Origin: Desulfobacterales bacterium
GTDB taxonomy: Bacteria; Desulfobacterota; Desulfobacteria; Desulfobacterales; JAHEIW01
Reading direction: 5' to 3'
DNA: 64,000 nucleotides
Assembly (NCBI GenBank): GCA_030066985.1
Contig: JASJAN010000004.1
Coordinates: 62,001 to 126,000 of the forward strand
The notes below the pieces were generated by a model that did no database searches, was not told where the DNA came from, and saw only the letters and a list, made by a program, of their open reading frames with translations. Position numbers and translations under genes: made by a program. How positions within the stretch are numbered: the stretch's first letter is position 1; every line of letters starts with the position of its first letter. Below, one piece after another: positions 10,795 through 57,001 of this stretch.

Positions 10795-11145
10795 GTTTGA
10801 AATTATTCGCACGCAAAGCCGCAAAGCTCGCAAAGAAAAGGGTTTAATGTTTTCTTTAAGTCTCTTTGTGACCATTGTGGGCTTCGCGTTATTCGTGGTG
10901 AATACAAAAAGTTTATATAACCACGAAGGTCACGGAGAACACAAAGAATTAATGCTTTAAACAAACAAGTCTTTGCGCCTTGGCGTCTTTGCGTGAGGCT
11001 TCACCATGCCTCTGGCAGCTTGTAATTCATTTCGCCGATCAGAAAATGACATGATCCGCTTTAATTTTGTTAAGCTACTGCAGAGACGTAAACAAATGGC
11101 AGGAACATGAGGCCAGTGGTTAGAGAAAAGCAGCCAGCGGCCAGA
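10795..11145. repeat. Intergenic repeat cluster (CACGAAG / GCAAAG words)
   Basis: A 351-bp gap between convergent genes without a gene. From about 10805 to 11005 it is built from iterated words such as CGCAAAGCCGCAAAGCTCGC, CTCTTTGTGACC, GGCTTCGCGTTATTCGTGG, ACCACGAAGGTCACGGAG and CTTTGCGCCTTGGCGTCTTT, arranged as inverted copies. It belongs to the same class as the repeats at 5830, 13657 and 16520. The rest (11006-11145) shows nothing recognisable. Confidence 0.65.
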
Positions 11146-16519: not shown

Positions 16520-16790
16520 TCATCACGCAAAGTCGCGAAGAAAATCTGCTAATATTTTTTTCTTCCTTTTGTGAACTTCGCGGGCTTCGTGTTCTTCGTG
16601 TTAGGAAAAAACTGATTATTTAACCACGAAGACACGAAGGGCACAAAGTATAAAACTTAAAAAAATTGTTAAACTCTTTGTGAACTTTGTGCTTTTGTGG
16701 TTGAGAAAAGCTGATTATCTATCCACAAAGAATGATGCTTTAAATCTAAATATCTTTGCGCCTTTGCGTCTTTGCGAGAGGCTAAAGGCT
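16520..16790. repeat. Three consecutive CACGAAG/GCAAAG repeats
   Basis: The 332-bp gap before engB is almost entirely made of three palindromes in a row: CATCACGCAAAGTCGCGAAG to CTTCGTGTTCTTCGTGTTAG, then AACCACGAAGACACGAAGGG to GTGCTTTTGTGGTT, then a shorter CCACAAAG to GCCTTTGCGTCTTTGCGAG. Read-through of the last one gives a false N-terminal extension to the engB reading frame (from 16772). Confidence 0.7.
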
Positions 16791-17398: not shown

Positions 17399-17530
17399 GT
17401 TGCACCATTAAGCCAATATAAGCGTCTTTGTCCTGCTCGACGATTTACAATCGGTTGTTTAACCCTTACCTTCTTTTATAAAAGTATTTACGATACTTTC
17501 CGCACAAAGTTTGTTGGCGTCTTATTATTG

Positions 17531-17847
17531 ACCGCAAAGACGCAGAGTCCGCAGAGAATTAAGTTTATTTGCCTTGTCGCTGACCAGCCGTCGCTTTCAG
17601 CTATGGCCTGGCATGGACGCCGACAAGGCAAAAACATCTCAACCCTGCGGGTTATAAAAATTGATTCTTAACTTTATCGTGAATTCAGCAACAAAATGTT
17701 TCCATAGTATCATTTAACAGCTGATGCTTAAAATCTGTATATTACTTGCCGGAGGCGGATTGTCTTTTGTTTTCCGTCCTCTCAACGGAAAACAAAAGAA
17801 AAAAATTATCTCTGCGGCCTCTGCGCCTTGAGCACAGCGGGCGGTGC
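17531..17847 (-). repeat. Kissing-hairpin element, copy in reverse orientation (K1)
   Basis: Terminal inverted repeats (ACCGCAAAGACGCAGAG at 17531 and the complementary CTCTGCGGCCTCTGCGCC to 17847) enclose two strong hairpins. One stem is TTTGCCTTGTCG (17568-17579) with CGACAAGGCAAA (17621-17632). The other is the 15-bp stem 17763-17777 with 17785-17799 around the loop CCTCTCA. It matches the elements at 31660, 55351 and 56791 in reverse orientation, and its right end is the reverse complement of the left end of the 55351 copy. The first hairpin's loop carries an extra ~32 nt compared with the 9-nt loop elsewhere. It lies between engB and era and explains most of that 456-bp gap. Confidence 0.8.
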
Positions 17848-18908: not shown

Positions 18909-20834
18909 TCAGCGGGTGATGCTTAGGATCAGGCTGCCTTCAACGGTTCCTTTTTTGACCGGGTGCTGTTCCTGCCCGGTGGCCCGGGGCACCCTGTCGG
19001 AAACATAGCGGTAGGCCTCATCCACTGTAACCAACCCATCACCGTCCGTGTCCGCCGGTCCTTTCAAACCCTCCAGCAGGTAATAGGTGAACACCCCGTG
19101 CTGAAGTTCGTCCCGTTCCACGCTGACCTCGTTGGCGGCGCTGGCAGTGATAATCACTTTGCCGCGGCCAGCTGCAACCCGATCCAGAAAGGTGTCGGCA
19201 ATATTGGCCCGCATACCGGTGATGCTGACGGTACGCCCACCGCTGGCCCCGCTGTAGCAGGCGTCCGCGATGAAAATAAGGCGTTCGGAGCGGATGCGGT
19301 TAAAAATCAGGGCCAGATCCCGCATGGGCAGGGCGGTTGAAAACAGGTCCGACGGGTCGGTATCGTAGGTCAGAATGTATTTCTCGAGCCCATCGCCGTC
19401 TAGGCTCATGGCATCGCGCTCGGTGGCCCCGTGACCGGCAAAGAAGATGATGACCATATCGTCTGAATCGGCAGCCCCTTTCAGCCCGGTTCCCAGGGCG
19501 CTTCTCAGCTTTCGCAATGTGGCCTGCTTGTTGAGCAGCACGGTAATATTTTCAGCGGGGACGAGGTTCTTTTCCACCAAAAGACGCTTAAAGGCCCTGG
19601 CATCGTTGACCGCGTATTTAAGCTTCGGAAGCTGTGGATAATCGTTGATGCCCACCACAACCGCCCAGACGTTCCGCCGGCTGGGTGTGTAATGCACGCT
19701 CACCACTTTTTCGGTGACCAGTCCGTCGGTGTCGGTTACCCGCACCTTGATGCGGTTCTCACCATGGTTCAGCGGTACCGCCTGATCGAAATTGGATCGG
19801 CGGGGGGCATCCCCGGACACCGTTATTAGACCTCGGACGCCATCGGTTGCCACGGGCTGACCGTTGACCAGGATCTCCAGATTCATGATCCCGCGGTCGT
19901 CTTCCACAGCACCTCTGATTCGCACCGAATCAACCTCCAGCTTGCGGCCGTCTTCAGGACCGGTCAAGATGACAAACGGAGGCACTTTGGCACCTTCTCC
20001 GATTTTGCTCATCAATTCCTTTTCGCGCTGCGATTTTTCTTCAAGCTCCTGGCTCAACTGAGTTGATTTCTCTTTTTCCTGCTGCAGCTGAAGCGTCATT
20101 TCATCCAGCTGCTTTAGTTTTGCGGTCAATTCCTCCAGGCGGTTTTCCAGCTCTTGTACCTGGGCCGCATTTTGCTGGCCGGCTGCGCCTGACAGGTCCT
20201 GTTTAGAGTCTTCCAGTTTTTTGATTTCTTCTTTAGTTGCCGAAATTTGCTGTGACGCTTTTGCCTGGGCGATATCGTAGTCTCTTAGTTCTCGAGCCTG
20301 CGAAAGGGCGTCTGCAATACCTCGATGTTCGGGGTTCATTTTTTGCAGCCCTTCTAAAAACGTGCTGATCTGGCTATAATCTTTGGTTTTCCAGACAATA
20401 ATGATGATGTCGTAATGGCCACTGTTATCCAAGTGATAGTTGTCAATAATACCTAAGGATAGACTGCCCGATGTGAGGGATTCAAAAGTGCCGCCGTGTA
20501 CATGATAAAAAAGTGTTTGCCAACCGCCGTTGATCCATTTTGCTATGGTTCTGTAAGTTGCATCCGCTGGGGGTGCGTTTTTCCAACGGCGTATCTCGCC
20601 ATCAACCATAATGGAAACATATTCGCCGGCAGTCAGATCTATTTTAGTGTCTTTTTTCTCAATGTGCCCATACAGTTTAAAGGTCTTAAATTCGCGTATG
20701 TAAGATGGCATCTGCTCAGGAGAATTGATTTCCGGGGCTGTTGAACAACCGGCAAAGATCAGCCCGATTGCACAGCAAACCCAAATTGTTACTCTTAAAA
20801 TAGCAAGCCTGTCTTGGAAGCCTTCTTTTTTCAT
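18909..20834 (-). CDS. Caspase-like (C14) lipoprotein with lectin-like, coiled-coil and Ig-like regions
   Basis: A 641-residue protein. A lipobox (IFAGC, Cys30) predicts a lipoprotein. Residues about 45-150 resemble PA-IL/LecA-type calcium-dependent beta-sandwich domains, ending in SGSLSLGIIDNYHLDNSG. Residues about 175-280 form a Glu/Gln/Lys-rich coiled coil, about 285-390 look like an Ig-like module (VDSVRIRGAVEDDRGI), and 395-615 form a caspase-fold peptidase with VVVGINDYP, the catalytic His468 in FFAGHG and Cys526 in DACYSG. DTDGDGLVTVDEAYRY at 595-610 looks like an EF-hand calcium loop. Both catalytic residues are present, so it is probably active. A second lipoprotein gene lies just upstream. 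The biological role is unknown. Confidence 0.85.
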   Translation of the reverse strand: MKKEGFQDRLAILRVTIWVCCAIGLIFAGCSTAPEINSPEQMPSYIREFKTFKLYGHIEKKDTKIDLTAGEYVSIMVDGEIRRWKNAPPADATYRTIAKWINGGWQTLFYHVHGGTFESLTSGSLSLGIIDNYHLDNSGHYDIIIIVWKTKDYSQISTFLEGLQKMNPEHRGIADALSQARELRDYDIAQAKASQQISATKEEIKKLEDSKQDLSGAAGQQNAAQVQELENRLEELTAKLKQLDEMTLQLQQEKEKSTQLSQELEEKSQREKELMSKIGEGAKVPPFVILTGPEDGRKLEVDSVRIRGAVEDDRGIMNLEILVNGQPVATDGVRGLITVSGDAPRRSNFDQAVPLNHGENRIKVRVTDTDGLVTEKVVSVHYTPSRRNVWAVVVGINDYPQLPKLKYAVNDARAFKRLLVEKNLVPAENITVLLNKQATLRKLRSALGTGLKGAADSDDMVIIFFAGHGATERDAMSLDGDGLEKYILTYDTDPSDLFSTALPMRDLALIFNRIRSERLIFIADACYSGASGGRTVSITGMRANIADTFLDRVAAGRGKVIITASAANEVSVERDELQHGVFTYYLLEGLKGPADTDGDGLVTVDEAYRYVSDRVPRATGQEQHPVKKGTVEGSLILSITR

Positions 20835-31659: not shown

Positions 31660-31922
31660 TTTCACCGCAAAGACGCAGAGGCCGCAAAGGTTTTTTTCTT
31701 ATTTCTTTTCGCTGAGAGGGCGAAAAGAAATAAACTTAAGCCCTATGTTCTTTAATACCAATGAAACATATAGCATAAGTAAAAGAAATGCCTTAAAAAT
31801 AGTTTATATTCTCAATAAATAAGATCCTGCCGCGCAGCGGTTGAGCGATTTTCATTTGTCGGCGCCTCAGCGACAAATGAAAAAAATAAACTCTCTGCGA
31901 ACTCTGCGCCTCTGCGGTGAGA
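31660..31922 (+). repeat. Kissing-hairpin element (K2)
   Basis: Terminal inverted repeats (TTCACCGCAAAGACGCAGAG at 31660 and CTCTGCGCCTCTGCGGTGAG ending at 31922) enclose two hairpins. Hairpin 1 is TTATTTCTTTTCGC / GCGAAAAGAAATAA (31699-31733) with loop TGAGAGG. Hairpin 2 is TTTTCATTTGTCG / CGACAAATGAAAA (31849-31883) with loop GCGCCTCAG. A small GCCGC/GCGGC hairpin precedes hairpin 2. The hairpin 1 loop GAG and the loop 2 CTC are complementary. It sits between lysA and the endonuclease IV-like gene. Confidence 0.85.
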
Positions 31923-55338: not shown

Positions 55339-55350
55339 TATTCTGTTATT

Positions 55351-55614
55351 CACCGCCCGCTTCGCTCAAGGCGCAGAGTTCGCAGAGAGTTTTTTTTAAT
55401 TTTGCTTTTCGTTGAGAGGACGAAAAGCAAAAAACAATCTGCTGTCGCATATATCGTATATGATATAAACCACATTAGTTAACCGGTACTTAAAAGAAAT
55501 TAGGTTCAAAATCAGTTTTTTATAATCCGCAGGATTGAGATGTTTTGCCTTGTCGGCGTCTCAGCGACAAGGCAAAGAAACTATCCTCTGCGATCTCTGC
55601 GTCTCTGCGGTGAG
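55351..55614 (+). repeat. Kissing-hairpin element (K3)
   Basis: It lies between oppD and oppF. The left end (CACCGCCCGCTTCGCTCAAG) and right end (CTCTGCGTCTCTGCGGTGAG) are terminal inverted repeats. Hairpin 1 is TTTTGCTTTTCGT / ACGAAAAGCAAAA (55400-55432) with loop TGAGAGG; hairpin 2 is TTTGCCTTGTCG / CGACAAGGCAAA (55544-55576) with loop GCGTCTCAG. TGAGA in loop 1 is complementary to TCTCA in loop 2. The right end abuts the oppD stop codon. Confidence 0.87.
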
Positions 55615-56790: not shown

Positions 56791-57001
56791 TTCTCACCGC
56801 AGAGACGCAGAGGGCGCAAAGGTTTTTATCTTATTTCTTTTCGCTGAGAGGGCGAAAAGAAATAAACTTAAGCCCTAATAATGTTTAAATTATTTAAAAT
56901 TAATCCTGCCGCGCAGCGGCTGAGGATTTTCATTTGTCGGCGTCTCAGCGACAAATGAAAAAAATTTACTCTTTGCGATCTCTGCGTCTCTGCGGTGAAA
57001 A
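56791..57001 (+). repeat. Kissing-hairpin element (K4)
   Basis: The most regular copy. Terminal inverted repeats of 31 nt at 56791-56821 and 56971-57001 differ at three positions. Hairpin 1: TTATTTCTTTTCGC / GCGAAAAGAAATAA (56831-56865), loop TGAGAGG. A middle hairpin ATCCTGCCGC-gca-GCGGC-tg-AGGAT (56903-56927). Hairpin 2: TTTTCATTTGTCG / CGACAAATGAAAA (56927-56961), loop GCGTCTCAG. Loop 1 (with its closing C: CTGAGA) is complementary to TCTCAG of loop 2. It sits between oppC and oppD. Confidence 0.9.

Follow-up and report, generated by a model that had tools for sequence, protein, structure and literature searches.

Within the 64-kb window, the whole stretch of DNA analysed here, four complete hairpin-ended elements occupy the narrow gaps of ysxC/era, of an nfo-like/lysA-like gene pair and of opp genes (Table 1). 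All four lie at the places given in an initial annotation of the sequence, and the terminal inverted repeats (TIRs) and both main hairpins described there are present in each. Element bounds were taken from TCACC or TGACC to GGTGA or GGTGC. Read inward, each end consists of a TIR of tandem 8-9-mers (TCACCGCAGAGACGCAGAGNNCGCAGAG), followed by hairpin A and then by the small hairpin B. The TIR is built from three tandem units, TCACCGCAGAG-ACGCAGAG-NNCGCAGAG, with tandem 8-9-mers of the CRCNRA type in all four window copies, and an A/T spacer separates it from hairpin A. Hairpin A has an 11-14 bp stem of variable sequence and the loop TGAGA(G/C)G, and hairpin B, a second small covarying hairpin found at every end, has the loop TNC. 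The right end repeats the left in inverted orientation, and the whole element is an inverted repeat. Folding of the 56791 copy is far more stable than that of shuffled sequences, both as DNA (z -12.2) and as RNA (z -11.9).

Table 1. Positions of the four elements in the window and of the parts of copy 4
Feature	Position	Strand	Context or detail
Copy 1	17529-17847		between ysxC-like gene and era; hairpins A 17568-17632 and 17760-17802, the latter with inward loop TTGAGAGGA
Copy 2	31662-31920		between deoxyribonuclease IV-like (nfo-like) and lysA-like genes; hairpins A 31699-31733 and 31849-31883
Copy 3	55350-55613		between oppD-like and oppF-like genes; hairpins A 55400-55432 and 55544-55576; left TIR is variant TCACCGCCCGCTTCGCTCAAGGCGCAGAG
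Copy 4	56794-56998		mirror-ended, gene-less; between oppC-like and oppD-like genes
Copy 4, left TIR	56794-56821	+	TCACCGCAGAGACGCAGAGGGCGCAAAG, three tandem units
Copy 4, left hairpin A	56831-56865	+	14-bp stem TTATTTCTTTTCGC; loop TGAGAGG 56845-56851
Copy 4, right hairpin B	56908-56920	-	stem GCCGC/GCGGC, 3-nt loop
Copy 4, right hairpin A	56927-56961	-	13-bp stem; loop 56940-56948, GCGTCTCAG on +, CTGAGACGC inward
Copy 4, right TIR	56971-56998	-	inverted copy

Variation within this design is recurrent. A variant TIR, in which CCGCTTCGCTCAAG or the similar GAGCGAAGCGGGC stands in place of part of the first units, is found in the window at 55350-55380 and 17820-17847, recurs in several genomes and is also present at loci L207 and L251. 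Foreign short palindromic inserts recur in the loop of hairpin A directly after TGA, leaving the stem unbroken, in the window (17587-17613) and at L064, L070, L251 and L384.

The family is not limited to the window. In the 5.07 Mb genome (G000), 77 element pieces were found by blastn, and a covariance model trained on 22 ends retrieved 74 ends. Across the 22 ends, 91.5% of hairpin A stem cells are paired (shuffled mean 71.4%), with 70 stem changes on both sides against a shuffled mean of 23.1 and none of 500 shuffles as high; pairing falls to 54-61% when the partner is shifted by one column. The T-rich stems of G000 have GC-rich counterparts in Desulfacinum infernum, where the loop CTGAGACGC is unchanged. 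In 41 distinct hairpin A stems, collected from several genomes, Watson-Crick pairs number 476, G-U pairs one and other pairs 15, C-A accounting for eight of the mismatches. The annotation had likened the combination of loop conservation and stem covariation to a DNA fold recognised by a recombinase, a view strengthened by the GC-rich Desulfacinum stems under the same loop and by covariation that is Watson-Crick only. The stem covariation is real, and two loops depart from the motif: in the left hairpin A of copy 1 the stem is kept while about 34 nt have been inserted in the loop and TGAGA is gone, and the right loop of copy 2 has been changed on that side alone to TGAGG (inward).

The scarcity of G-U pairs favours a DNA hairpin over RNA as the structure that is kept. 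One alternative is that the hairpins are RNA elements with a part in the processing, stability or termination of mRNAs from operons such as opp. The elements lie between operon genes and would be transcribed, and the RNA fold is very stable; nevertheless, RNA stems normally tolerate G-U, and the C-A mismatches, which are G-U on the opposite strand, do not rescue this explanation because any transcript reads the two ends of an element in opposite senses. A role in RNA would also leave the mirror-image ends and the TIR without function, and it fits poorly with the absence of elements from the same site in congeners and with the nuclease gene inside autonomous versions described below; Rfam gave no match anywhere in the window, and on balance an RNA function is improbable. 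Less probable still, and very much so, is a kissing contact between the two hairpin loops (TGAGA with TCTCA) that draws the ends together, as the annotation had suggested. TGAGA is present in both loops of most complete copies, but the complementarity is automatic, since the right end mirrors the left: read inward from either end the loop is (N)TGAGA(N)G, and the two loops that had been distinguished are one motif on two strands. A kissing contact is also at odds with the one-sided, uncompensated A-to-G loop changes in copy 2 and L015, with the frequent mismatch between ends at loop position 6, and with the occurrence of the same loop on elements with unrelated stems at their two ends, as would be seen for a protein-recognised motif. 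No compensatory changes between the two loops of one element were seen among the complete copies compared, only one-sided ones. Copy 1, in which the insertion destroys one loop motif while the stem and TIR persist, comes close to what the annotation itself had said would argue against kissing, namely copies that lose complementarity and keep the terminal arms. The elements may represent a natural case of DNA hairpins kept by shape through Watson-Crick-only covariation.

Copies are 85-90% alike at unrelated loci, and homology stops exactly at TCACC and GGTGA. Eleven sites were compared with two congeners (G001 and G002) by queries of joined flanks, about nine of them being fully covered. Of these sites, three lack an element in one of the congeners (L003 and L018 in G001, L011 in G002). 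At L007, L018 and L022, a congener carries an element with the same borders and an interior nearer to copies elsewhere, while at L005 in G001 the left half has been retained and the right half is different; at L007 in G002 the element is the same by descent. The two opp sites carry other repeats in congeners, and in the same opp gaps (L303-L306) the ACAGGATT type is found in congeners and the CGCAGAG type in two other genomes. These comparisons document, at the level of sequence, the dispersal of discrete units, their presence or absence between congeners and the replacement of interiors in place. Neither a target-site duplication nor a base-precise integration site could be read, as intergenic divergence blurs the comparison with empty sites.

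The exact element TIR is found in many phyla, including Acidobacteriota, Planctomycetota, Chloroflexi, Gammaproteobacteria, Desulfobacterota and Elusimicrobia, and interiors between these TIRs differ greatly. In three loci, including ones from Acidobacteria and Planctomycetes, TIR pairs 440-720 bp apart enclose a single open reading frame (ORF), which encodes a GxxExxY protein (PF13366/TIGR04256, both profile matches confirmed), a PD-(D/E)XK nuclease. At 128 loci, the TIR pairs were found to enclose no transposase gene, and no gene but GxxExxY recurred between them. In 105 proteins compared, conservation of the putative catalytic residues E25, D65, E75 and K77 is 99-100%. At L248, in a genome of the same order as the window (G028), the arrangement is TIR-hairpin A (TGAGAGG)-GxxExxY-hairpin A-TIR, and similar arrangements are present at L251, L254, L313 and L318. 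In appearance, the window copies are elements of this type minus the gene. The presumed autonomous members consist of a tandem-unit TIR, one GxxExxY gene and a second TIR within approximately 0.45-0.7 kb, with hairpins on both sides of the gene in a minority of GxxExxY elements. In Sphingomonas parapaucimobilis, the fabD-fabG gap contains a GxxExxY element that has tandem-unit ends of its own, and the fabD-fabG pair of S. paeninsulae is without it, an empty site. No solved structure related to GxxExxY was found, and AlphaFold on four sequences gave no usable fold (pLDDT 39). At L134 (1304-1840), a TIR pair surrounds a 154-aa ORF with an E-A-K motif and without a Pfam match, possibly a second nuclease type with the same ends.

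Association of GxxExxY with TIRs is general. When the upstream flank of each gene was aligned to the reverse complement of its downstream flank, with no motif assumed and a score of at least 30 counted, inverted flanks were found for 14 of 27 GxxExxY genes against 1 of 140 control placements in a first set, and for 37 of 49 against 2 of 196 in a second; about a quarter of the tested genes have no detectable TIR pair. All the flanking repeats are tandem units, of several types (ACGCAGAG, ACACAGAG, ACACAAAG, ACACGAA, ACGCAGATT, ACACAGAC and ACAGGAT). Mapped on a tree of 65 proteins, TIR unit type requires 12 changes, compared with a shuffled mean of 33.9 (0 of 200 shuffles as low); paralogs from one genome (G026) group with proteins of the same type from other genomes, and the proteins of the hairpin-bearing L248, L251 and L318 form one supported clade. 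GxxExxY is present in 26 of 30 genomes picked solely for the TIR and in 65 of 198 across the phylum, counts obtained at unequal E cutoffs (1e-10 and 1e-15, respectively). Among 40 relatives, the number of ends correlates with the GxxExxY count (rho 0.63, p 1e-5) better than with that of RAYT genes (rho 0.34). As judged from sequence comparison, the same ends and hairpins enclose GxxExxY elsewhere, TIRs flank the gene generally, and protein and TIR type have evolved together. Neither the element nor GxxExxY matched any of 50,697 phage records; plasmids gave no element match and GxxExxY in eight records, and viral contigs gave no relative by single-sequence search and one by profile search.

The family link between the window elements and GxxExxY elements is strong. 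The four elements are best explained, with a probability of about 0.6, as non-autonomous, MITE-like members of a selfish family of GxxExxY-nuclease elements that spreads by homing-like, TIR-bounded repair. The G000 assembly (97.8% complete) holds only two GxxExxY genes, with TIRs of the ACACGAA and ACGCAGATT types, and a cognate hairpin-clade GxxExxY for the CGCAGAG hairpin elements was not found in it; the window copies are therefore classed as non-autonomous derivatives, and their current activity is unproven. Co-evolution of protein and TIR suggests that the nuclease may act on the TIR. In the proposed mechanism, it would recognise the TIR, and in the hairpin clade also a DNA cruciform formed by extrusion of the hairpin, and would cut DNA of the family. 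The break would then be repaired by copying another family member by way of the common TIR, a process expected to disperse interiors and end modules and to mix them, with gene-less copies riding along, and possibly to allow entry into new sites. Recognition of the hairpin as a DNA shape, or its re-copying on itself, may explain why the stems stay perfect and yet changeable, the loop and TIR being read as sequence. Such break-driven copying would account for the swapped interiors, the mixed left and right modules, the lack of a visible target duplication and the abundance of gene-less copies.

The main rival to this explanation is that the elements are MITE- or REPIN-like and owe their movement to a conventional enzyme (RAYT/Y1 or a DDE transposase); GxxExxY would then only be carried along frequently or profit from the TIRs. 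Mirror-ended hairpin elements in which no target duplication is seen resemble the REPINs that RAYTs mobilise (PMC3116915, PMC3733652), RAYTs occur in 36 of the 40 relatives, and the missing cognate GxxExxY in G000, together with the want of a target site readable to the base, keeps the passenger explanation in first place among the rivals. It is nonetheless rather unlikely. The REP/REPIN mark is a GTAG or CGTC tag at the foot of the hairpin (PMC3733652), and 0 of 41 hairpins here have one. RAYT number is only weakly correlated with end count, no gene other than GxxExxY recurs between TIR pairs, and the tracking of GxxExxY phylogeny by TIR type is unexpected for a passenger. RAYTs were rejected as the mobilising enzyme because their loci are without the element TIR (a real TIR pair at 0 of 30), and the RAYT of G000 itself has a different terminal repeat: the gene, at L117 on contig C2, lies between the arms of another inverted repeat, GGGGACGCCCATAAAATTATAAG, which is unrelated to the window elements.

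Members of the GxxExxY-nuclease family share features with several known systems. Like REPINs and BIMEs with their RAYTs, the window elements are short and intergenic, have two inverted hairpin ends and no visible target duplication, and are non-autonomous copies of a single-gene system; unlike them, they have no GTAG/CGTC tag, a long tandem-unit TIR, a stem that is not conserved and no RAYT linkage, the partner being a PD-(D/E)XK nuclease. Bacterial MITEs of IS elements are similarly TIR-bounded, internally deleted and alike in their ends to gene-bearing copies, whereas the partner here is GxxExxY, and no DDE transposase partner was found and no target duplication seen. Free-standing homing endonuclease genes, some of which encode PD-(D/E)XK enzymes such as I-SspI, resemble the family as tiny nuclease-only elements with in-place replacement at fixed sites and spread by break repair, the latter presumed here; they differ from it in that the present elements have their own TIRs and hairpins, lie at many unrelated intergenic sites and include more gene-less derivatives than gene-bearing copies. 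The Rpn/PDDEXK_2 'recombination-promoting nucleases' and TnsA of Tn7 are PD-(D/E)XK nucleases with a link to DNA mobility, as GxxExxY appears to have, but belong to different Pfam families; TnsA needs TnsB, and Rpn is not known to have a tandem-unit TIR.

The family is apparently widespread and undescribed, and open-access papers contained nothing linking GxxExxY/PF13366 or these repeats to mobility. There is a fair chance that their enzyme basis sets these small TIR-bounded selfish elements apart as a separate superfamily. It is proposed more tentatively, at somewhat less than even odds, that GxxExxY elements constitute a new mobile-DNA superfamily in many bacterial phyla, in which a lone 120-aa PD-(D/E)XK nuclease recognises its own tandem-unit TIRs (and in one clade DNA hairpins of free sequence with fixed shape and loop), and spreads and overwrites copies by homing-like repair without a known transposase or recombinase. 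No classical transposase would be needed in such a possible mobile system. Annotated GxxExxY proteins occur in many phyla and have no known role, and their own terminal repeats give them a testable function; the tie to GxxExxY would also explain a large class of intergenic repeats built from tandem units (CGCAGAG, CACAGAG, CACGAA and ACAGGATT types), apparently unexplained before.

Further intergenic tandem-unit inverted repeats, of the CGCAAAG, CACGAAG and CACAAAG types, are present in the window at 10812-10993 and 16600-16776; their architecture is like that of the element TIRs, without hairpin A. Beside era, a gene on the minus strand (18909-20834) encodes a protein of 641 aa whose caspase-like domain is of the EACC1-associated type (match to NF047832 below the curated cut-off).
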